DNA from: Methyloceanibacter superfactus
GTDB lineage: Bacteria > Pseudomonadota > Alphaproteobacteria > Rhizobiales > Methyloligellaceae
DNA: 64,000 bases
Reading direction: 5' to 3'
Assembly: GCF_001723305.1 (NCBI RefSeq)
Contig: NZ_LPWF01000016.1
Location: 124,001 to 188,000 of the forward strand
In this document: one piece after another, positions 30,402 to 43,254 of the stretch
Numbering within the stretch: the first letter of the stretch is position 1
Layout of the letters: every line of letters begins with the position of its first letter
Notes under the pieces: generated by a model
Database searches by the model: none
Seen by the model: the letters and a program-made list of their open reading frames with translations, nothing else
What the model was told of the DNA's origin: nothing
Translations under genes and position numbers: made by a program

Positions 30402-31271
30402 CTATTTGCGGCCGAGGCGCGCGATCAGGCTCGAAGTGTCCCAGCGGTTGCCGCCCATCTCCTGAACGTCCGCATAGAACTGATCGACAAGCGCCGTCAC
30501 CGGCAGGCTCGCGCCGTTGCGGCGGGCCTCGTCGAAGCAGATGGCGAAATCCTTGCGGACCCAGTCGACGGCAAAGCCGAAGTCGAACTTTCCCTCGATC
30601 ATCGTCCGCCAGCGATTGTCCATCTGCCAGGATTGGGCCGCGCCTTTCGAGATGGTGTCGATGACCTTCTCGACATCGAGGTTGGCCGCCTTGGCGAAGT
30701 GAAGCGCCTCGGCGAGGGCCTCGATGAGACCGGCGATGCAGATCTGGTTGACCATCTTGGTGAGCTGGCCAGAACCCGACGGGCCGATCAGATTGGCCGC
30801 GCGCGCATAGGCGTCGATCACCGGCTTTGCCTTGGTGAAATCGTCTTCGTCGCCGCCGATCATAACCGTGAGCGTGCCGCTTTCGGCGCCGGACTGGCCG
30901 CCGGAGACGGGCGCATCGAGGCTGCCTGCGCCGCGCTCACGCGCCGCGCCATGCAGCTCCCGGGCGATGGTGGCCGAAGCCGTGGTGTGGTCGACGAAGA
31001 CGGCGCCCGACTGGAGAGTTTGGAACACCCCATCCGGGCCGAGGGTCACCGAGCGGAGGTCGTCGTCGTTGCCGACGCAGGCGAAGACGAAGTCGGCATC
31101 GCCTGCCGCTTCGGCCGGCGTCGCGGCGAGTCTGCCGCCAAACGCATCGACCCAGCGCTCCGCCTTCTCGCGCGTGCGATTGAACACGGTCACGTCATGG
31201 CCGTGGGTTTTGAGATGTCCGGCGAGGGGGTAGCCCATCACGCCGAGCCCGATCCAAGCGACTTTGCTCAT
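30402..31271 (-). CDS. 3-hydroxyisobutyrate dehydrogenase-family NAD(P) oxidoreductase
   Basis: A beta-hydroxyacid dehydrogenase of 289 residues. The N-terminal Rossmann motif is VAWIGLGVMGYPLAGHL, with the cofactor-discriminating VFNRTREKAERW suggesting NADPH. The substrate-binding motif DAPVSGGQSGAESGTLTVM and the catalytic helix SGSGQLTKMVNQICIAGLIE (invariant Lys) follow. The ATG at 31271 was chosen over a longer frame, as MSKVAWIGLG is the usual family start. Members act on 3-hydroxyisobutyrate, tartronate semialdehyde, glyoxylate or succinic semialdehyde. The sequence alone does not choose between them. Confidence 0.88.
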   Translation of the reverse strand: MSKVAWIGLGVMGYPLAGHLKTHGHDVTVFNRTREKAERWVDAFGGRLAATPAEAAGDADFVFACVGNDDDLRSVTLGPDGVFQTLQSGAVFVDHTTASATIARELHGAARERGAGSLDAPVSGGQSGAESGTLTVMIGGDEDDFTKAKPVIDAYARAANLIGPSGSGQLTKMVNQICIAGLIEALAEALHFAKAANLDVEKVIDTISKGAAQSWQMDNRWRTMIEGKFDFGFAVDWVRKDFAICFDEARRNGASLPVTALVDQFYADVQEMGGNRWDTSSLIARLGRK

Positions 31272-31328
31272 GGGCGACGTTCCGTCCTTCGTTCCTGCGC
31301 TGCCTTTTCGTCGGCATAGCACAAAATG

Positions 31329-31355
31329 AAATGGCCGGGACGAGCCCGGCCATTT
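31329..31355 (-). terminator. Strong hairpin, terminator of the oxygenase gene
   Basis: AAATGGCCGGG and CCCGGCCATTT form a perfect 11-bp stem around a 5-nt loop. Read on the minus strand it follows the stop of the 2OG oxygenase gene at 31384 by 28 bases and is followed by TCATTTTGT. The core matches, with one mismatch, one arm of the palindromic repeat at 54743. Confidence 0.7.
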
Positions 31356-31383
31356 GCGAAAACCGATCTGAAGCGCAGCGCGA

Positions 31384-32085
31384 TCAGGCGATCGGCGCCT
31401 CCGGGAAGGCGAGCTGCTCGCGGGCGCGCCATTCGTCGGTCACGTAATTGATGATGAGCGACTTGCGCACGCCCTTGATCGGCCGCTTCTCGAAGCCGTG
31501 ATAGGTGTCGCTGCCCGGCACGAAGATCATCGCCGCGTTCGAGGCGAAGGGTGAACGGCCGACATGCTTCTTGTCGGCATCGTAGATATCGGTGCCGAGA
31601 TCCTCGTGGCTGTCGTCCGTCGACAGGTAGAGCAGCATGGTGAAGGACTTCACGCCGAGATCGGTATGCGGCTCAAGCCAGAAGCCGTCCGTGTCTTGGG
31701 CGAACTCGATACGCAGATAGGTGCCGTCGAGCTTGGTGCCGAATGCCTTCTCGACCAACTGGGTGACGCGCTTGTCCTGAAAGGCTTCGGCCACTGCCTC
31801 GCAGACCGGGAAGGCCGCGCGGTTGTCGGCGTCGAAATATCGGCGCGTGTTGTTGTGGAGCTCTCGCTTTCCCGACACGCCTTCGAGAGACGGGGCCGGG
31901 AAGGGGAGGGCAAGAATGTCCTCGATGGTGTCGGCCGGAAGACAGGTCCTCAAGACCCAGTGCGGGTAGGGCTGATCGGAGCGCTCACCCGCTGCGACGC
32001 TTTGCGAAAAGGCACGGACGACGTCGTCGGCCGAACTTTTCACAGTCTCAGCGTCTGATTGCTTTACCGCCACGCTTTCCCTCAT
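31384..32085 (-). CDS. 2-oxoglutarate/Fe(II)-dependent oxygenase
   Basis: The 233-residue protein has the double-stranded beta-helix iron motif His140-x-Asp142 (WLEPHTDLGVKSFTMLLYL) and distal His196 (SDTYHGFEKRPI). The 2-oxoglutarate-binding Arg207 lies in GVRKSLIINYV. The N-terminal half contains HNNTRRYFDADNRAAFPVC and LRIEFAQDTDGFW. This pattern occurs in prolyl-hydroxylase-like oxygenases of unknown substrate. ATG 32085 (MRESVAVKQSD) is used; a TTG at 32097 overlaps the stop of the upstream coding stretch by TTGA and would extend the protein by four residues. A strong terminator follows at 31329. Confidence 0.85.
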   Translation of the reverse strand: MRESVAVKQSDAETVKSSADDVVRAFSQSVAAGERSDQPYPHWVLRTCLPADTIEDILALPFPAPSLEGVSGKRELHNNTRRYFDADNRAAFPVCEAVAEAFQDKRVTQLVEKAFGTKLDGTYLRIEFAQDTDGFWLEPHTDLGVKSFTMLLYLSTDDSHEDLGTDIYDADKKHVGRSPFASNAAMIFVPGSDTYHGFEKRPIKGVRKSLIINYVTDEWRAREQLAFPEAPIA

Positions 32086-34181: not shown

Positions 34182-34309
34182 GCGAACCGGCGGGTAGAAG
34201 ACGGCGCTTGCGCATGGCAGGATGACGTCAATGCGCTCTTGGACAGCGCGAACGAAACGCAAGGTTGGATGAGGGCCGCCGCAATGCGCGGCCGATCTGG
34301 GAGAAGTCC

Positions 34310-34776
34310 ATGCAAAGAGTGACGTTCATCGTGGGCGCTTGCTTGGGCGCGATCGTCTTCGTTGCGGCGGCGAGTGCGGCCGACGATCTGGCCCAAGCCG
34401 TAAAGGAACGGCGTGAGCTGATGGACGACGTGGTGCGGCCCGCGGCGAAGCTCGGCGGCGACATGATCAAGGGCACGATCCCGTTCGATGGCGCCAAGGC
34501 GGCCGCGGCCATGCTGAAGATCAGCGATGTGCCGGAGACTTATGTGACGCTGTTCCCCGCGGCTCGGAAGTGGATGCTGTCCCCGATAGCGAGGCGTCGC
34601 CCAAGATTTGGGAGGACTTCGAGGGCTTCAAGGCGCTGGCGCAGAAGCTGGAAGATGCGAGCACGGCGGCGGCTGAAGCGGCCGAGCAAGGGGAAGGACC
34701 GTTCAAAGCCGCGTTCGGCGACATGACGAAAGTCTGCAAGGAGTGCCACAAGGCCTTCCGCGTGAAGAAGGACTAG
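34310..34776 (+). CDS. Cytochrome c', one frame break
   Basis: An exported four-helix heme protein. The ATG at 34310 follows GGGAGAAG and gives a signal peptide (MQRVTFIVGACLGAIVFVAA, cleavage after ASA-like AASA). The mature N-terminus DDLAQAVKERRELMDDVVRP is typical. Near 34562 one missing G restores FPAGSEVDAVPDSEASPKIW in the next frame. The heme motif CKECHKAFRVKK is at the C-terminus, as in cytochromes c'. Such proteins bind NO or CO and protect against nitrosative stress. Three more genes with heme, DUF4384 and caspase-like domains follow on the same strand; the diheme cytochrome is only 22 bp away. Confidence 0.87.
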
Positions 34777-34798: not shown

Positions 34799-35773
34799 GT
34801 GCGCAGAGCCTTGCTCGTGCTGCTGGTGCTTGGTGCCGCGGGTGCGCTTGCCTTCTATCTGCTGACGATTCCCGTGACGGTGCCGGCATCGGCGCTGCCG
34901 GACGATCATGTCCCCGATCTCGATAACGGCAAGACCATGTTCACCGCAGGCGGTTGCGCCGAGTGTCACGCCGCGCCGGCCGGTGCGTGCGACGATCTCG
35001 ATATCAAGGACGAGACGGTGCTGGCGGGCGGGCGTTGCCTCAAGACCGATTTCGGCACCTTCTATGTTCCGAATATTTCCCCGGATAGGGAGACCGGCAT
35101 CGGTGCGTGGACCACGCTCGACTTCGTCAATGCCATGAAGCGAGGCGTCGCACCCGGCGGCGTCCATCTCTATCCGGCGTTTCCCTACACGTCCTATCAG
35201 CGCATGAGCTACGCCGATCTCATCGACCTCAAGGCCTATCTCGACACGCTGCCTTCGATCAGCAATGAAGCGCCGGCCCACGCGTTGCGCTTTCCCTACA
35301 ATATTCGCCGAGGGGTCGGGCTATTCCAACGCCTCTACGTGGACGGCAAGACGCGGGCGCCGGATGCTGACGCCAGCGACGAACTGAACCGCGGTGCCTA
35401 TCTCGCGCTGGGGCCCGGCCATTGTGGTGAATGTCACTCGCCGCGCAATTGGCTCGGCGGAACGATCGCGGCGGAGGCGTTTGCCGGGGCGAAGAGTCCC
35501 GAAGGCGGCACGGTTCCCAACATTACGCCGAGCGCGGACGGAATCGGCGATTGGACCGAGGAGGACATCGCCTATCTGCTGGAGGCCGGGAACACGCCGG
35601 ATTTCGACGTGATCGGCGAGACCATGGCGCCGGTGCAGGAGAATATGGCGAAGCTCACGCCGCAGGATCGGAACGCGATCGCCGCCTTCATCAAGTCGTT
35701 GCCGCCACGCCCCAATGCCGTGCAAAAATCGAAGGCCAAGGGTGAGACTGCTGGCGAAGAGGCCGAGAACTAG
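34799..35773 (+). CDS. Membrane-anchored diheme cytochrome c
   Basis: The 324-residue protein has an N-terminal anchor (LLVLLVLGAAGALAFYLL) and two class I heme sites, GGCAECHAAPAG and GHCGECHSPRNWLGG. Segments such as FGTFYVPNISPDRETGIGAW, FVNAMKRGVAPGGVHLYPAF and TVPNITPSADGIGDWTEEDI match cytochrome subunits of membrane alcohol, aldehyde and sugar dehydrogenases and related electron carriers. No dehydrogenase flavin or PQQ subunit is nearby, so its partner is unknown. It starts with GTG, 22 bp after the cytochrome c' stop, and very likely shares its transcript. The tail is Lys/Glu-rich. Confidence 0.9.
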   Translation: MRRALLVLLVLGAAGALAFYLLTIPVTVPASALPDDHVPDLDNGKTMFTAGGCAECHAAPAGACDDLDIKDETVLAGGRCLKTDFGTFYVPNISPDRETGIGAWTTLDFVNAMKRGVAPGGVHLYPAFPYTSYQRMSYADLIDLKAYLDTLPSISNEAPAHALRFPYNIRRGVGLFQRLYVDGKTRAPDADASDELNRGAYLALGPGHCGECHSPRNWLGGTIAAEAFAGAKSPEGGTVPNITPSADGIGDWTEEDIAYLLEAGNTPDFDVIGETMAPVQENMAKLTPQDRNAIAAFIKSLPPRPNAVQKSKAKGETAGEEAEN

Positions 35774-35878
35774 CGGCAGAGCGGGAGCCCCGTAAACCAT
35801 TCCCGTTCATGGGGCGTTCAGTTGCCGTCTTCTAAAGGGGAGCGGATAACCGTGGTTCTCGACCCAACGGAGGTCTTG

Positions 35879-38211
35879 ATGAGGTGGCGATCGATGCCCG
35901 CGCTGCTCGCGCTCGCCGTGCTGTGCATGGCGGCGGGATTGGGCCAGTGCCGTCGCCGTCGAGACGATGGCCGGGAACGTCGCGGCGACCCCCGACGATC
36001 CGGTGGCGCGCCCGCCCTGAACGCGCTCGACAAGCATTGCGCGCGCTGTCATCAGGCCGGGCCGGCCCTGAAGCGGCAGAAGCCCGCAAAGAATTTCGGC
36101 AACGTCCTGAGACTCGACGAGATCGCGCGCGACCCGGATTTGATCCTACCCGGCAACCCGGACGGTTCCGGCCTGTTCATTCAGATCGCCAAGAAGGACA
36201 TGCCCTACGATTGCTATCAGGAGTTCGACTGCGACGCCGAGCCGACGGCGAACGACGTCAAGGCCGTCTATGACTGGATCAAGGGGCTAGGCGATACGGT
36301 CGAGGCGGCGTGCGGAAACCGCGTGCCCATCGATACGGGCGCCATGGTCAGCGCGATCGCCGACGATATCGCCGCGCAGGATGCGTCCCGGCGTCCGGGC
36401 ATGCGCTACGTCACGCTGACACACTTCTATAATGCCTGCGCCTCGAACGAAGACATGGTGCGCTACCGGCAAGGCGTGGTGAAGCTGCTCAACAGCCTAA
36501 GCCGCAATTCGGTCGTGCTGAAAATGCGCACGATCGATCCGAACGCCACGATCATCGCCTTCAATCTCGATGATCTCGATTGGCGCAAGGAGGCTTGGGC
36601 GCGGATAGCCGGCGGCTATCCCTACGGCATGGAGCCGGAGGGGATGGCTTACGACACGGCAACATCCACCACCGGCACGAAGCTGCCCTGGGTCAGAGGC
36701 GACTGGCTCGCCTTCGCCGCGTCGCGTCCGCCGCTCTATTACGACCTACTCAGGTTGCCCGAGACATTCGCCGAGCTCGAACGGGAGGAGGGCGTCGACG
36801 TCAAAGCGAATCTCGAGGCATTCCTCGCCAGGCGCGCGGGCTTTCAGAAGTCGGGTGTATCCAAGCATAATCGTCTGATTGAACGGCATCCGATCCCGAC
36901 CGGCTATTTCTGGACATCCTACGACTTCAAGGGCGATGCGTCGGCCCAGAGCCTTTTCGTCCATCCGCTCGGTCCTTACGGCGCCGATGCTTTCCAGCAC
37001 GATGGCGGAGAGACCATCTTCAGCCTGCCCAACGGATTCCAGGCCTATTATCTCAACACCGCCGAGGGCGAACGTTTGCGCAAAGGCCCCACCGAGATCG
37101 TTCTCGACGATAGCCAGCGCGACCGCGCGGTGACCAATGCCATTTCCTGCTTCGGCTGCCACAACCAAGGCATCCGCCAGGCGTCCGACGACATCCGCGA
37201 GCATGTGCTGCACGACAAGAGCTTTCCCATGAGCGTTCGCCGTCAGGTCGAGGCGCTCTATGCGCCGCAAGCCGAGATGAAAGAGTTGCTCGCGTCCGAC
37301 GCGGCGCGCTTCCGCAAGGCGATGCTCCGCGCCGGTCTCGATCCCGATCTCGACTCGCAGGCCGAGGGCGTGGAGAGCATCAACTTTCTCTCGCGGGCCT
37401 ATGAGAAGTCTGTCGATCTGAGGATCGCGGCGGCGAGTACGGGCTTCAGGCGGACGTGTTGGCCGAAGGCTTGGCCAAAGCCGGCGGCGAGGCCGGCCGG
37501 ATCAAGCGCCGCCTGGAGCAGGGCGTGCTACCGCGCGAAATCCTCGAGGCCGAGTTCGGGGATCTGGTCGCCAAGGTCTCCACCAGCAAGCCCATCGAGA
37601 TCGCTTCGTTGACGCCGACCGCCGTGGCTCGGATCAGAGACGACAATGAAGACGTGTTCGACGATTTCGATCTGGCGCTTACCTCCGACAAGAGCACCTA
37701 CCGCGTGAACGACCTTCCCGTGTTCAGCATCCGGTCGGGCAGGGATTGCCACCTCACGCTGATCAATGTGGAGGCGGACGGGAACGGCACCGTGATCTTC
37801 CCCAACCAGTTTCAGCAGGACAATTTCCTGCCGGCGGAGACCGAGGCGCGGTTCCCGGGCGACGAGGCGCCATTCCAGTTCCGGCTCAAGGATCCCGGAA
37901 CGGAGACCGTAATCGCCATCTGTAACGCGAGCGGTGTCGAGGCCGATGGGATCGAGCACGATTTCAAGACGCGGCAGTTCACCCCGCTGGGGAATTATCG
38001 CGACTTCCTGACCCGCCAGATCGTGGTCGAAGGGGCTTCGAAGATCGCAGCTGGGCAGAAGGCAGCCGGGAGCCAGGTGGCGCTCAAGGCCAAGGAGGCT
38101 GGGTCCGACGACGATCAACCGGGCGCGGGCGAGTCCGGGGACACCGATTCCGGGGATTCCGAGGACACCGAGGTTCTGGCCCGGACTGCCATTAAGCTTG
38201 TGGTGCGTTAG
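35879..38211 (+). CDS. Exported heme-binding/DUF4384 protein, frame breaks
   Basis: A large protein of about 780 residues. The ATG at 35879 follows GGAGG. The signal peptide MRWRSMPALLALAVLCMAAG slips near 35945; the neighbouring frame reads ASAVAVETMAGNVAATPDDP and slips back near 36010. A first heme site HCARCHQAGPALKRQKPAKN is at about residue 54 and a second, SCFGCHNQGIRQ, at 424. The latter follows GGETIFSLPNGFQAYYLNTA, a segment I associate with heme proteins of Planctomycetes. A third break near 37432 leads to ADVLAEGLAKAGGEAGRIKR and then a DUF4384 domain (VNDLPVFSIRSGRDCHLTLI, NGTVIFPNQFQQDNFLPA). DUF4384 usually accompanies caspase-like domains, and one follows next. Function unknown. 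Confidence 0.75.
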
Positions 38212-38411
38212 CGGGTCCCATCCGGTCCCATGGCGCGGTTTGCCAATGTCTTGCCGCCATCGCCCCTTAGCGTTCCTGGTGGCGCTCCCGGAGAGGCCTT
38301 GGGTCGCCTGATTGCTTGGCCTAATCTTTGCTCTGGAAGATGGCAAATATGTTTGAAGTGGGCCGCGCCAGAGGGCGCGGTCAGAGTGCGTTTTTGCGTT
38401 TGAGGGTATCC

Positions 38412-40156
38412 ATGGCGGGGAGATTGGGACGCGGGCGGAGCCTGTTAGGCGGGCTCGTCCTTACGCTTGCGGGTACGGCGGCGTGCCTTGCCGTGGCACG
38501 TGCGGAGCCTGCGGCCGGTGCAGCAGCGGCACAAAATATGGTCATCGCGGTGGTGACGCCGGAGGTGGAGGCCACGGCGGCGGCCGAGCCCAAGGACAAG
38601 AAGGCCGAGGCGACGGCCTGGGTGCAACGCTGCTTTTCTCAGCTCGGATATTACAAGGGCCCGATCGACGGCAAGGCCAATGACGAGACGTGGACGGCCC
38701 ATTGGTATTTCAAGAACGAACACGGGATGAAGGCCTACGGCGATTTTCTCGCCGAACCGGTCCAGAAGAAGCTGAGGGCGCTGTGCAAGGACCTGCCGGT
38801 GGCGAAGCCCGAGCCCCCCGCGCCGCCGCCCGAGGCCGTCGAAGCGGAAGCGGCCGGCGCCGAGGCAGCCGAGCCGGCGACGGGGCCCGATGCGCCGGAG
38901 GCCGATACGACCGAGGCCAGTGAGACCGGCGTCACCGCGGCGCTCGCACCTCCCGCCGAATCCGCGCCGCCTATCGAGGAGGAGGCGCCCGTGCCGCTGA
39001 CGCGGCTTGAGATAGACTGCCTGCCGGAGGATCTTATCGGGATTCTGCGCAAGGCTCACGGCGACAGTGTCAGGGCCCGCGCTTGCGCGTCCGGCTGCCT
39101 GCCGTCGCCTGACGGGCTCAACCAGATCCAGCTCGATGATCTGCAGAGCCGCTATGGCGTTGTGTGGTGCCGCAATTGCGTGCAGATCGAAGGGCACTTG
39201 TCCCTGGCCGACGTGCGGAAGATCGAGAGCGAAGGTCATTTCGATCTTTGCACCATGCCGCCGCGCCACTTGCCGCGCCCGGGGAGCGGCAACGGCAACG
39301 TCGTGAAGTCCTTCACGCGCATTCGCGAGCTCTATCGGGCGTTGCCGGCCGCTGCGGAGAGTCCGGGTGACATTGCCGTCATCATCGGCAATAGCGCTTA
39401 CGAGAACCTGCCTACCGCCGAGACCGCACGGAACGACGCCGGCGCGATGTACTTCTTCCTCACCGAACATCTCGGCTATCGCCAAGACAACATTATAGAC
39501 GTGCGGAATGCGAAGCGTGCCGACCTGGAGCGGCTGTTCGGCCCGGTGCCGGGGTCCGACGGCGAGCTTGCCCGTCTGGTGCGTGCGCAGCCGGGCGGCC
39601 GGGTGATCGTTTATTATTCCGGTCTCGGGGCGACCAATAGCAGTCACAGCGACAATTATTTGTTGCCGGTGGACGCGGAGCCCTATCGCGAAGAACGGGG
39701 TGGCTATCCGCTGTCGACCCTCTACGACAATCTCGCCAAGCTCAACGCGAAGTCGGTGCTCCTCCTGCTGGAAAGCGAATATGGCCGGGATCACGGTTCC
39801 TATGTCCTGCCGCCCAACCTGCCCGAAACGACGAGCTCGGTCCTTCCGCCGGCGCCGCTCTCCACGGTGACGGTGCTCGCTGCGGCGGACCGGGGCCAGC
39901 GCACCCTGATCGACACGAGCTACGACATCGGGCTGTTCACTCGCTACCTGATCGAGGGTCTGGCCGGTTCCGCCGATCTTTATCCGGTCGCAACGGCGAT
40001 GGCATGGTCGATAGCGCTGAGATCTACGCTTACACCGCTGCCATGGTGAGGCTGTCGGCGCGCAAGACATTCGGGCTATTGCAGGAGCCGGTCTACTCGA
40101 GCGCGGCGACGCCTATGCTGTCGGGTTCGGACGCCGTCGCCGCCAAGCCCGATTGA
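38412..40156 (+). CDS. Exported caspase-fold protein lacking the catalytic His and Cys, one frame break
   Basis: Start ATG 38412 follows GAGGG and gives a signal peptide (LLGGLVLTLAGTAACLAVARA). A peptidoglycan-binding-like segment (WVQRCFSQLGYYKGPIDGKA) and a Pro/Ala/Glu-rich linker follow. The caspase-like domain starts near residue 320 with IAVIIGNSAYENLPTAETAR. The usual His motif YYSGHG reads YYSGLG (Leu405), and the usual DAC motif reads LLLESEYG, with Glu456 in place of the Cys. Both catalytic residues are thus absent, as in pseudo-caspases. A break near 39992 leads to GNGDGMVDSAEIYAYTAAMV, an EF-hand-like segment common at the end of such domains, and the stop at 40154-40156. It follows the DUF4384 gene by 200 bp. 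Confidence 0.8.
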
Positions 40157-40303: not shown

Positions 40304-41491
40304 ATGGACGTTTTCACTTCTGCCTCGGAGCTTCTTCGTCATCATCGTCCCGAGCGACCTGTCCTAGCTCTTCGGCCGCACGCCGCGCAGCGCGCGGCGA
40401 AGTGGTTTCTTGCCAACTTTCCCGGCCGGGTGCTCTACGCCGCCAAGGCGAACGATGCGCCGCAGATCATCGAGGCTCTGGCCGAGGCCGGCATCACGGC
40501 CTTCGATGTCGCTTCTCTGGTCGAGATCCAGCGGATGGCGGCGGTCAAGGACGCCGAGCTCTATTTCATGAATCCGGTGAGTCGCGGGGCGGCCATCTCG
40601 CGGGCTTATCGTGAGTTCGGCGTACGGCGCTTTGCCTTCGACTCCGCCGATGAGTTGGACAAGGTCATCGAGGAGACGGACGGGGCGGACGACCTCACCC
40701 TGTTCCTCCGGATCGCCTGTCCCAACACCCACAGCCTTATCCCGCTCGAAGGGAAGTTCGGCGCTAGCCAAGCGGAAGCGCCGGAACTCCTGCTGAAAGC
40801 GCGCCAGCGTGCGACCCGGCTCGGAATCACCTTCCATGTCGGCTCGCAGGCCGTAGTGCCCGCCGCCTTCGGTGAGGCAATCCGGCAGGTGGGACAGCTG
40901 ATCGTGTCCTCGGGCGTGCTGGTCGACGCCATCGACATCGGCGGCGGTTTTCCGAGCCGCTATCCCCATTCCGAGCGCCCGATCTGGCGAGCTTCATGGA
41001 CGAGGTGGTGCGTGCCGCGGACGAACTGGCGGAGCACTCTTGCGAGCCTTCTGTGTGAGCCGGGCCGGGCGCTGGTGGCCGAGGCAGAGTCCGTCATCGT
41101 CCGCGTCGACGCGCGCCGCGACAACGCGCTCTACCTCAATGATGGCGCGTTCGGGACGCTATTCGACGCAGCATATTCCGGCTTCCGTTTTCCCGCGCGG
41201 CTCGTCACGCCGTCGCGCGGCAGGACTGCGCCGGAGGCGGAGTTCGTGCTCTACGGTCCGACCTGCGACAGCTCGGATTATCTGCCGGGCCCCTTCATGC
41301 TGCCTGCATCGGTCACCGAAGGCGATTATCTCGAGATCGGACAGATCGGCGCTTACGGCCGCGTCTTGGCGAATCGTTTCAACGGCTTTGGTGTGTTCGA
41401 TGAGGTGGTGCTGACGGACGAGCCGATGCTGTCCATGTATGAGAGCGCCGAGGACGAGACCTCCCAAGCCGCGTGGCCGGCGCGCGCCTAA
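40304..41491 (+). CDS. Fold-type III PLP decarboxylase (ornithine/lysine decarboxylase-like)
   Basis: An alanine-racemase-fold decarboxylase making a polyamine (putrescine or cadaverine). PLP Lys is in VLYAAKANDAPQIIEALAEA. Further motifs are FDVASLVEIQRM, FAFDSADELDKVIEE, the phosphate-binding IDIGGGFPSRYP, CEPGRALVAEAE and YGPTCDSSDYLPGPF, the conserved Cys-Asp active-site segment. Between about 40978 and 41037 the frame reads WRASWTRWCVPRTNWRST, whereas the next frame gives PDLASFMDEVVRAADELAEH, a natural protein. Two compensating single-base errors are therefore likely. The substrate cannot be separated between ornithine, lysine and diaminopimelate, but the overall pattern is nearest to ornithine decarboxylase. 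A hairpin at 41515 may end the transcript. Confidence 0.83.
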   Translation: MDVFTSASELLRHHRPERPVLALRPHAAQRAAKWFLANFPGRVLYAAKANDAPQIIEALAEAGITAFDVASLVEIQRMAAVKDAELYFMNPVSRGAAISRAYREFGVRRFAFDSADELDKVIEETDGADDLTLFLRIACPNTHSLIPLEGKFGASQAEAPELLLKARQRATRLGITFHVGSQAVVPAAFGEAIRQVGQLIVSSGVLVDAIDIGGGFPSRYPHSERPIWRASWTRWCVPRTNWRSTLASLLCEPGRALVAEAESVIVRVDARRDNALYLNDGAFGTLFDAAYSGFRFPARLVTPSRGRTAPEAEFVLYGPTCDSSDYLPGPFMLPASVTEGDYLEIGQIGAYGRVLANRFNGFGVFDEVVLTDEPMLSMYESAEDETSQAAWPARA

Positions 41492-41514
41492 GCGCCGGAG
41501 TTCCCCATAACGAA

Positions 41515-41545
41515 AGAGGGCCGCGCTTTGGTAAGCCGGCCCTCT
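41515..41545. terminator. Bidirectional hairpin between convergent genes
   Basis: AGAGGGCCG and CGGCCCTCT form a perfect 9-bp stem around 13 bases, 24 bases after the decarboxylase stop. It lies about 50 bases past the stop of the convergent DUF2735 gene. No T run is present. Confidence 0.5.
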
Positions 41546-41596
41546 GCGATCAGTTGCTTGTCACGGTCGCGCCTCGGGCGCACCAGCAAGCCCATG

Positions 41597-41791
41597 TCAG
41601 TTCTTGCGCGTATGCGCAGCCTCCCGGACCGCCTCTTCGTGGTACCAGGCGCCGCCCGCGACGACATTGGCCGTCCGCAGCGCGAATTCGTCCATGGGCT
41701 TGACCTCATAGCGGCCGCTGGTTAGACCCGCGCGACCGCCTCTGGGGAACTGGTAGATCTTGGCGGTCCCCTCAAAAGAACTTGTCGTCAT
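41597..41791 (-). CDS. DUF2735 protein divergent from glnII
   Basis: The 64-residue protein is MTTSSFEGTAKIYQFPRGGR, then AGLTSGRYEVKPMDEFALRT and GGAWYHEEAVREAAHTRKN. DUF2735 genes are commonly found divergent from glnII in Rhizobiales, and the same arrangement is seen here. The ATG at 41791 follows GGAG; the frame is open further upstream, but that part lies over the promoter region. Its role is unknown; co-regulation with glutamine synthetase II under nitrogen limitation is plausible because the shared 428-bp intergenic region carries a sigma-54 element. Confidence 0.82.
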   Translation of the reverse strand: MTTSSFEGTAKIYQFPRGGRAGLTSGRYEVKPMDEFALRTANVVAGGAWYHEEAVREAAHTRKN

Positions 41792-42219
41792 TGTATTCTC
41801 CATTCGAATGTTTCGCGTCGAAGCACTAGCGACTCGACGACTGATTACCCTCACCATAACGAAATTCAGGGAGTCACTGCACAACAAATTTGCGGAATGA
41901 CTATTATTTCAGCGCCTTTTGCTTCTGCATTCTGGCGCAGCATTGTGCAGTGCGGTCGATGTCGCGTCGTCGACGAAACAATCGAAGACTTTTGGCGCGC
42001 GCCGAGGGCTCCGGCGAAGTGACGCTAATTATTACGAAAAAATGAATGGTCGGCGGCGGGACTGGCTTGCGCGTGGGGCCCCTGCGCCGGGACTGCACTG
42101 TCCCAGGGTCCGCATTGGCACAAATGCTGCTGGAATACCAACGCATTGGCCGCCAGTCATCCAGGCGACGTCAGAGACTCTCTCTCATTCCGCGAGAACA
42201 GCTTCAAGAAGGACCCGCA
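41792..42219. promoter_or_regulatory. Intergenic regulatory region of glnII and the DUF2735 gene
   Basis: This 428-bp stretch between divergent genes has no convincing coding sequence; the frames that extend glnII upstream are non-conserved and Arg-rich. It is less G+C-rich near 41860-41930. A sigma-54 element sits at 42116. Several TGCAC/GTGC half-sites occur (for example near 41887 and 42094), but none forms a clear NtrC palindrome. Confidence 0.6.
42116..42131 (+). promoter_or_regulatory. Sigma-54 promoter of glnII
   Basis: TGGCACAAATGCTGCT matches the sigma-54 consensus TGGCAC-N5-TTGC(A/T) at all key positions, with GG at -24, GC at -12 and the correct spacing. It lies 88 bases before the glnII start. 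In rhizobia glnII is activated by NtrC with sigma-54, so nitrogen-limitation control is expected. Confidence 0.8.
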
Positions 42220-43254
42220 ATGACAAAGTACAAACTCGAGTATATTTGGCTCGATGGATATACTCCGACACCGAATCTGCGTGGTAAGACGCTGATCAAA
42301 GAATATGGCAGCTTTCCTTCCCTCGAAGAACTTCCGTTGTGGGGCTTTGACGGAAGCTCGACCATGCAGGCCGAAGGCAAGAGTTCGGATTGCGTTCTCC
42401 AGCCAATTCGGGTCTTCCCGGACGCGGCGCGCAAGGACGGCGTCCTGGTGCTTTGCGAAGTGATGATGCCGGACGGCACGCCGCATCCGTCGAACAAGCG
42501 CGCGACCATTCTGGACGATGAAGGCGCCTGGTTCGGCTTCGAGCAGGAGTATTTCCTCTACAAGGACGGCCGTCCGCTCGGTTTCCCGTCCGACGGCTAT
42601 CCCGCGCCGCAGGGCCCCTATTACACGGGCGTCGGCTTTTCGAACGTGGGCTCGATCGCCCGCCAGATCGTCGAGGAGCATCTCGATCTGTGCCTCGCCG
42701 CCGGCATCAATCACGAAGGCATCAATGCTGAGGTGGCGAAGGGCCAGTGGGAATTCCAGATCTTCGGCAAGGGGTCCAAGAAGGCCGCCGACGAAATGTG
42801 GATGGCCCGCTATCTGCTGGAGCGCCTGACCGAGAAGTACGGCGTCGATATCGAGTATCACTGCAAGCCGCTCGGCGACACCGACTGGAACGGGTCCGGC
42901 ATGCATGCCAATTTCTCCACCACCTATCTGCGTGAGACGGGCGGCAAGGCGTATTTCGAGGCGCTGATGGCGGCGTTCGAGAAGAACTGCGCGGAACACA
43001 TCGCGGTCTATGGACCGGACAACCACATGCGGCTGACCGGCAAGCACGAGACCCAGGCGATCGATCAGTTCAGCTACGGTATCGCCGACCGTGGCGCGTC
43101 GATCCGCGTGCCGCACAGCTTCGCCAAGAACGACTACAAGGGCTATCTCGAAGATCGCCGTCCGAACTCGCAGGGCGATCCCTACCAGATTGCCTCGCAG
43201 ATCCTGAAGACGATCGAATCCGTCGCGTCCGAAAAGGTCAGCGCCGCGGCCTAA
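42220..43254 (+). CDS. glnII: Glutamine synthetase II
   Basis: A eukaryote-like glutamine synthetase that assimilates ammonium into glutamine using ATP. The 344 residues start MTKYKLEYIWLDGYTPTPNL and include LPLWGFDGSSTMQAEGKSSD (ammonium and ATP site), WFGFEQEYFLYKDGRPLGF (metal-binding Glu residues), GINAEVAKGQWEFQIFGKGS, GSGMHANFSTTYLRETGGK and NHMRLTGKHETQ. GSII is an octamer and is not regulated by adenylylation, unlike GlnA. A good AAGAAGGA ribosome site precedes ATG 42220. The sigma-54 promoter upstream and a strong terminator downstream make it a single-gene unit. The window also encodes GlnE at 8.6 kb, which acts on type I enzyme. Confidence 0.97.
   Translation: MTKYKLEYIWLDGYTPTPNLRGKTLIKEYGSFPSLEELPLWGFDGSSTMQAEGKSSDCVLQPIRVFPDAARKDGVLVLCEVMMPDGTPHPSNKRATILDDEGAWFGFEQEYFLYKDGRPLGFPSDGYPAPQGPYYTGVGFSNVGSIARQIVEEHLDLCLAAGINHEGINAEVAKGQWEFQIFGKGSKKAADEMWMARYLLERLTEKYGVDIEYHCKPLGDTDWNGSGMHANFSTTYLRETGGKAYFEALMAAFEKNCAEHIAVYGPDNHMRLTGKHETQAIDQFSYGIADRGASIRVPHSFAKNDYKGYLEDRRPNSQGDPYQIASQILKTIESVASEKVSAAA

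Follow-up and report, generated by a model that had tools for sequence, protein, structure and literature searches.

A putatively exported pseudo-caspase of Methyloceanibacter superfactus: lineage-wide absence of the catalytic cysteine and linkage to c-type cytochrome genes

In Methyloceanibacter superfactus, a member of a methylotrophic genus, a gene that we call caspA encodes a caspase-domain protein with leucine at the position of the catalytic histidine and glutamate at that of the catalytic cysteine, and the question this raises is whether such a protein is a former protease kept for another purpose, a decaying copy, a hydrolase of another kind or a product of sequence error, and what it might do next to the cytochrome genes that precede it. 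The window referred to throughout is the whole stretch of DNA that was analysed, 64,000 nucleotides of contig NZ_LPWF01000016.1 (positions 124,001 to 188,000 of the forward strand), and positions are given within it unless a contig is named. The features on which the argument draws are the following.

34265-34776, plus strand: cytochrome c' gene lying in two frames, with PF01322 matched in two parts (G000:C16:158394-158567; 158546-158761).
34799-35773, plus strand: diheme cytochrome c gene (CAECH, CGECH), frame intact (PF00034, E 4.6e-11).
35822-38211, plus strand: gene for a cytochrome-like part (CARCH, CFGCH) plus DUF4384 (E 6.8e-18), split near 37460.
38412-40049, plus strand: caspA, pseudo-caspase gene whose product is predicted to be exported; likely start ATG 38412, ORF as called 38328-40049, orthologs found.
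38412-38504, plus strand: signal-peptide-like N-terminus, MAGRLGRGRSLLGGLVLTLAGTAACLAVARA, from reading of the sequence.
38607-38696, plus strand: segment resembling a peptidoglycan-binding domain (PF01471, under the Pfam cut-off), which is residues 93-122 in the query of 572 aa.
39012-39254, plus strand: family-defining six-cysteine domain (its cysteines are alignment positions 3, 25, 29, 53, 56 and 80).
39372-39986, plus strand: in-frame part of the caspase (p20-like) domain, from Pfam, alignment and structure comparison.
39624-39626, plus strand: CTC (Leu) in the catalytic His column, from the sequence and the ortholog alignment.
39771-39779, plus strand: GAA AGC GAA (E-S-E) replacing D-x-C, with GAA 39777-39779 (Glu) in the catalytic Cys column.
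39980-40156, plus strand: frame break near 39985-39995, with the conserved EF-hand-like ending in another frame.

The plus-strand ORF 38328-40049 matches Peptidase_C14 (Pfam PF00656, E 4.8e-10, 39.9 bits against a cut-off of 21.4) and carries the motifs IAVIIGNSAYENL, YYSGLG and LESEYG, so the family start is kept, as the original prediction had claimed. Numbered from ATG 38412 the leucine is residue 405 and the glutamate residue 456, in agreement with that prediction, and both catalytic residues are indeed replaced; the dyad columns are anchored by a His-Cys relative (L030) with YFAGHG...LVLESCFSG at the matching columns. The His-Cys dyad of an active protease is therefore absent from the window protein, and what is present is the p20 domain with a substituted dyad that characterizes pseudo-orthocaspases. 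In another caspase of this genome (G000:C35) the dyad is complete (YYAGHG, LDACRD). The window protein begins with what reads like a Sec signal peptide, so the export that had been proposed agrees with what can be read from the letters, and the protein would probably be periplasmic. Two other proposed parts of the architecture did not hold. The peptidoglycan-binding-like segment reaches 13.8 bits where the cut-off is 23 (PF01471, E 0.067) and lies outside the query match, which starts after it, in five shorter members of the genus (436-494 aa: G004, G005, G007, G010 and G014); a peptidoglycan anchor was accordingly rejected as a family feature. The EF-hand-like end, with its NGDG stretch, is out of the caspA frame in the window, and no EF-hand family appeared in the Pfam results of the window protein (E<=1) or of two intact relatives (E<=0.1). 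Pseudo-orthocaspases are also marked by having no p10 domain; as to this, the Peptidase_C14 match spans profile positions 3-137 of 233 in the window protein and 3-225 in one relative. Each of the six N-domain cysteines is present in all 33 near-full-length family sequences. Additional Cys-rich modules (e.g. CAHPWTYSRGLRKCICVRSGYAV) lie N-terminal to the six-Cys domain in some longer members (L016, L018, L021, L024 and L027) and are not found in the window protein.

It had been stated that the replaced codons are not near a break, and this needs correction: about 210 bases past the Glu codon the caspA ORF departs from the family frame and runs through an unrelated tail to a stop at 40049. Of the cluster's four genes, three (cytochrome c', cytochrome-DUF4384 and caspA) have such breaks, while the diheme cytochrome c gene and the flanking genes that were compared with relatives are in single frames; a two-frame row at 30720-31887 was also listed in the frame-break scan, which we take to be an antisense ORF across two genes in single frames. 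In G008 and G013 caspA breaks at different places and neighbouring genes are broken too, and in G016 (G016:C120, L144) a C-terminal caspA remnant comes immediately after a cytochrome-DUF4384 gene whose frame is open, as if most of caspA had been deleted or the assembly were wrong at this place. The window cluster itself may have been recently damaged or mis-assembled. Nearby frame breaks could be taken to mean that assembly or base-calling error made both dyad substitutions as well, but the breaks are frame shifts and the dyad changes are substitutions, the Glu is common to six other genomes, which refutes error for the Cys column, and Leu arises independently in G012 (CTG) and in G226. Error of this kind is thus very improbable, and the earlier view that the substitutions are genuine stands.

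Searches for the six-Cys family covered 61 relatives, 397 genomes from the order, for which matches down to E<=1e-30 were taken, and 385 from the class, for which the limit was E<=1e-60; within this sample and these limits, the six-Cys form is confined to the order Hyphomicrobiales. Thirty-six distinct family sequences reach the active-site columns (37 rows, G087 being split over two contigs and counted once); outside this set are L143 (a paralogous fragment of G012, His/Asn), L142 (G012:C343, no motif) and the G016 remnant, which does not include the dyad columns. The Cys column holds Ser in 19 of the 36, Glu in seven, Gly in six, Asn in two and Asp in two, with Cys in none, while the His column holds His in 31, Leu in three, Tyr in one (G123) and Ala in one (G076), the three leucines belonging to separate lineages (the window, G012 and G226). 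Two positions ahead of the Cys column, all 36 have Glu. Orthologs with His and Cys at these positions had been named as the finding that would speak against a pseudo-enzyme, and here the outcome is divided, His in 31/36 going against that prediction and Cys in 0/36 going with it. Within the window's genus 14 genomes cover both columns, with His in 12 and, in the Cys column, Ser in eight and Glu in six. Related caspase domains that have no six-Cys domain carry both His and Cys in all 12 cases read (nine genomes), a count that covers only the caspase-only relatives whose DNA was read, four of them from G690, the other matches (mostly caspase-only paralogs) being unscored. A displaced catalytic cysteine was also looked for, and among the 33 near-full-length sequences no column of the caspase domain is Cys at >=60%; the only Cys or His columns that reach this level are the six N-domain cysteines, the dyad His (28) and His column 154 (21). 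The absence of Cys from every member, together with that of any other conserved Cys in the caspase domain, agrees with the original designation of the protein as a pseudo-enzyme, as far as this can be predicted from alignments.

The two residues have different histories. In a tree of 33 six-Cys family rows, six caspB rows (caspB being the caspase-DUF4384 gene described below) and 13 His-Cys rows, the six-Cys family makes up one side of a branch that is modestly supported (69/80), long-branch warnings apply to G076 and to some of the His-Cys rows, and every Leu sequence has a His-bearing sister (G000/G002, G012/G001 and G226/G039). The simplest account is a single loss of Cys, no later than the origin of the six-Cys family, followed, by parsimony, by five losses of His. 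Taken together, the contrast between Cys in 0/36 six-Cys sequences and in 12/12 caspase-only domains, the tree and the scatter of the His losses indicate a lineage-wide pseudo-caspase with a single loss of Cys and sporadic loss of His. The reading that both residues had been lost together is thereby replaced by one in which the Cys loss is old and family-wide and the His loss is scattered, and shedding of His again and again after the Cys had gone is what a true pseudo-enzyme predicts.

Since His is kept in 31 of the 36 sequences and Ser stands at the Cys column in 19, it might be supposed that much of the six-Cys family uses a His-Ser pair for serine-protease or esterase activity and that the window protein is an outlier without activity. 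The 17 sequences with Glu, Gly, Asn or Asp at the Cys column and the five that have lost His do not fit this, and Ser and non-Ser residues alternate among close relatives (Glu in G002, Ser in G008) in a manner unexpected for a catalytic nucleophile. This alternation disfavours a serine-type dyad, and a divergent hydrolase is improbable. Another use for a dead caspase would be to act as a simple substrate decoy; the S1-pocket Asp column, a position named for TbMC2 in the accessible part of PMC6426788 and transferred by reading of a yeast metacaspase alignment, is Asp in 18, Asn in 11, Ser in four, Glu in two and a gap in two of the 37 rows, and this variability counts against such a role.

Although it has no catalytic Cys, the domain is kept under purifying selection, with dN/dS over the six-Cys and caspase domains of 0.149 when the window is compared with G008 and 0.113 when it is compared with G002. 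This bears on the proposal that the window gene is a decaying pseudogene, in a cluster that is being lost from the strain, with the His-to-Leu change a part of the decay. Such a history would account for frame breaks in three of four cluster genes beside compared flanking genes in single frames, for the absence of the cytochrome-DUF4384 gene from 12 of 17 genus genomes and for G016, where only the C-terminal remnant of caspA is left beside that gene. It accords poorly with the low dN/dS of the in-frame domain and with the private amino-acid changes, which are fewer in the window lineage than in G008 (15 vs 28); Leu occurs also in G012, where the frame is unbroken (L040, an open frame of 647 aa), and the breaks could be assembly errors, as G008 and G013 are broken elsewhere in caspA and in its neighbours. 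Decay is therefore a possibility to be taken seriously, though on balance an unlikely one.

Structural comparison supports the caspase fold, although the models used are of low confidence. Two AlphaFold2 models, of the window protein and of the G002 ortholog, were built from six-row alignments and have mean pLDDT values of 46.8 and 42.9, weak overall with a better core; the six-Cys domain is mostly below 50 in both. With the window model the best Foldseek matches were metacaspase 7qp0 (E 8e-6) and MALT1 (1.4e-5), at a low query-normalized TM of about 0.28; VIA-align of the G002 model with MALT1 (7ak0_B) gave Z 10.3 and an rmsd of 3.5 over 165 residues, and a sequence profile finds yeast metacaspase 4f6p (E 2.4e-5). 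In the window model strand 197-203 is followed by the Leu and strand 247-254 has the Glu at its end, positions that we take to be the usual ones of the dyad in the caspase fold. By profile and model the fold would thus be common to caspA, the yeast metacaspase (4f6o/4f6p), 7qp0 and the MALT1 paracaspase; these are presumably active His-Cys enzymes, unlike caspA, and some of the entries are Cys mutants by title.

What, then, might a caspase fold that no longer cuts be kept for? The genes around caspA offer a candidate partner. The genes of the window follow one another as cytochrome c', diheme cytochrome c, cytochrome-DUF4384, caspA, PLP decarboxylase and glutamine synthetase, and those in genomes of a sister genus (g2) as cytochrome c', diheme cytochrome c, caspB and caspA; G021 seems to carry all five cluster genes, over two contigs. 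The cytochrome-DUF4384 gene is one open frame in G012, G015 and G020. A diheme cytochrome c gene lies within about 5 kb upstream of caspA in 19 of 20 genomes of the window's taxonomic family with readable flanks (the exception is G001), directly adjoining it in nine; this count leaves out G011, G019, G020 and G021, where the caspA contig ends. Presence and absence of the two genes go together in 27 of 30 genomes of the taxonomic family (both in 23, neither in G006, G009, G018 and G023), with caspA alone in G001 (77% complete) and the diheme gene alone in G016, which has the caspA remnant, and G029 (Fisher p 0.0026, kinship ignored). A cytochrome c' gene is found within 7 kb of caspA in 14 of 22 determinable genomes out of 23 chosen, where about 0.17 would be expected by chance, again ignoring kinship, or in 14/26 when G001, G007, G008 and G013 (readable flanks, none there) are added; the contig of G154 ends, so this genome was excluded, and G002, G011, G019, G020, G021 and G076 were left out because the caspA contig could not be judged. 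In four genomes of another taxonomic family (G040, G087, G123 and G181) the cytochrome c' gene is directly upstream of caspA, and the caspA-near cytochrome c' genes of both taxonomic families share one region of their tree with 10 others. These linkage counts are not independent and reduce to two taxonomic families. Evidence against the link comes from other taxonomic families (G037 and G039 among them) and from paralogous copies (G017b, G020b and G028b): a crude flank scan (up to 6 kb, in some cases much less) gave no CxxCH ORF at G037, G039, G017b, G020b, G028b and G076 and one doubtful CxxCH ORF at G226. None was found at three control His-Cys caspase loci (L113, L114 and L115), a number too small to weigh. 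On the other side of caspA, a PLP-dependent decarboxylase gene and then, where the contig reaches, a glutamine synthetase gene follow in Methyloceanibacter loci (40304-43254 in the window); G001 has no glutamine synthetase downstream of caspA.

Gene linkage is not interaction, and the arrangement could be an old gene order without functional meaning, caspA having some unrelated role in the cell envelope. The linked genomes are mostly of one taxonomic family, and the genus keeps the order with the decarboxylase and glutamine synthetase genes as well. This explanation has difficulty with the cytochrome c' gene directly upstream of caspA in the second taxonomic family and with the joint absence of caspA and the diheme cytochrome gene from the four genomes that have neither, and we consider it rather unlikely.

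The sister genus has in addition a second caspase-fold gene, caspB, a caspase-DUF4384 gene in tandem with caspA (L046 5726-7399; L087-L095). Judged by motif, its Cys place holds Ser (DTS) in nine of 10 loci, none being read in L096, and its His place holds Leu in five, Tyr in two and Phe in one of eight readable loci. It is like caspA in that the dyad is absent and the cluster is the same, and unlike it in having no six-Cys domain and in carrying DUF4384. As caspB forms a separate clade (100/100, on a long branch), its dyad appears to have been lost independently of that of caspA. There is also a clade of caspA paralogs (G012:C582, L143; and G017:C79, G020:C91 and G028:C138, L097-L099) with ASHG or SSHG and EANF, EVSF or EMSF; no cytochrome ORF was seen in the available flanks of L097-L099.

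The window protein is a variant of the established pseudo-orthocaspases. In its accessible part one survey counts 561 of these in Rhizobiales, links the type of dyad to the architecture of the protein's domains and names YS, YA, FS, QC and HA as common pseudo-dyads (PMC6426788), and according to the accessible part of an earlier survey 84% of putative bacterial metacaspases retain the dyad (PMC3501461). As far as these texts are accessible, the pseudo-orthocaspases of Rhizobiales and Cyanobacteria resemble caspA in having a bacterial caspase fold with one or both dyad residues replaced, but no six-Cys domain or cytochrome linkage is mentioned for them (PMC6426788, PMC3501461), and the six-Cys family has H-S/E/G/N/D (L-E in the window) in place of the common Rhizobiales pairs (PMC6426788). 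The accessible text of the former (PMC6426788) also limits pseudo-variants in Alphaproteobacteria to photosynthetic organisms, a rule to which Methyloceanibacter, as a methylotroph, would be an exception. The nearest tested analogue in the accessible texts is SyOC of Synechocystis PCC 6803, a bacterial pseudo-orthocaspase whose deletion raises oxidative-stress tolerance (PMC7889975), a phenotype that concerns oxidative stress, as a cytochrome-linked role also might; it differs from caspA in being cyanobacterial, in its Tyr-Gly dyad (PMC6426788) and in that the accessible texts mention no cytochrome cluster (PMC7889975, PMC6426788). No report of the six-Cys architecture, of separate histories for the two residues or of the cytochrome linkage was found in the literature searched, which was mostly without subscription journals and in part accessible only as partial text.

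Our best guess is that caspA functions as a binding scaffold, with c-type cytochromes as the candidate partner. We would propose that Cys was lost first and that the caspase fold was then retained as a periplasmic binding module, held by disulfides of the six-Cys domain, with which the protein might dock or assemble the c-type cytochromes encoded beside it; the purpose would probably be the handling of redox or of NO/oxidative stress, or electron transfer when the cells grow methylotrophically. We put the chance that caspA is a non-proteolytic, exported pseudo-orthocaspase scaffold working with the adjacent c-type cytochromes at about even. A wider and doubtful extension would be a periplasmic module of the Hyphomicrobiales in which one or two dead caspase-fold proteins are the dedicated partners of c-type cytochromes (cytochrome c', the diheme cytochrome and the cytochrome-DUF4384 fusion).

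Cytochrome c triggers caspases in animal apoptosis, and through this parallel a caspase fold near cytochrome c genes in Alphaproteobacteria will attract notice. Nothing supports a link to the apoptosis pathway, and the caspA-type proteins have no dyad and look exported. If the wider module exists, it would be a bacterial partnership between cytochrome c and a caspase fold that works by binding instead of cutting. The bacterial pseudo-caspases also gain a concrete and testable candidate partner.
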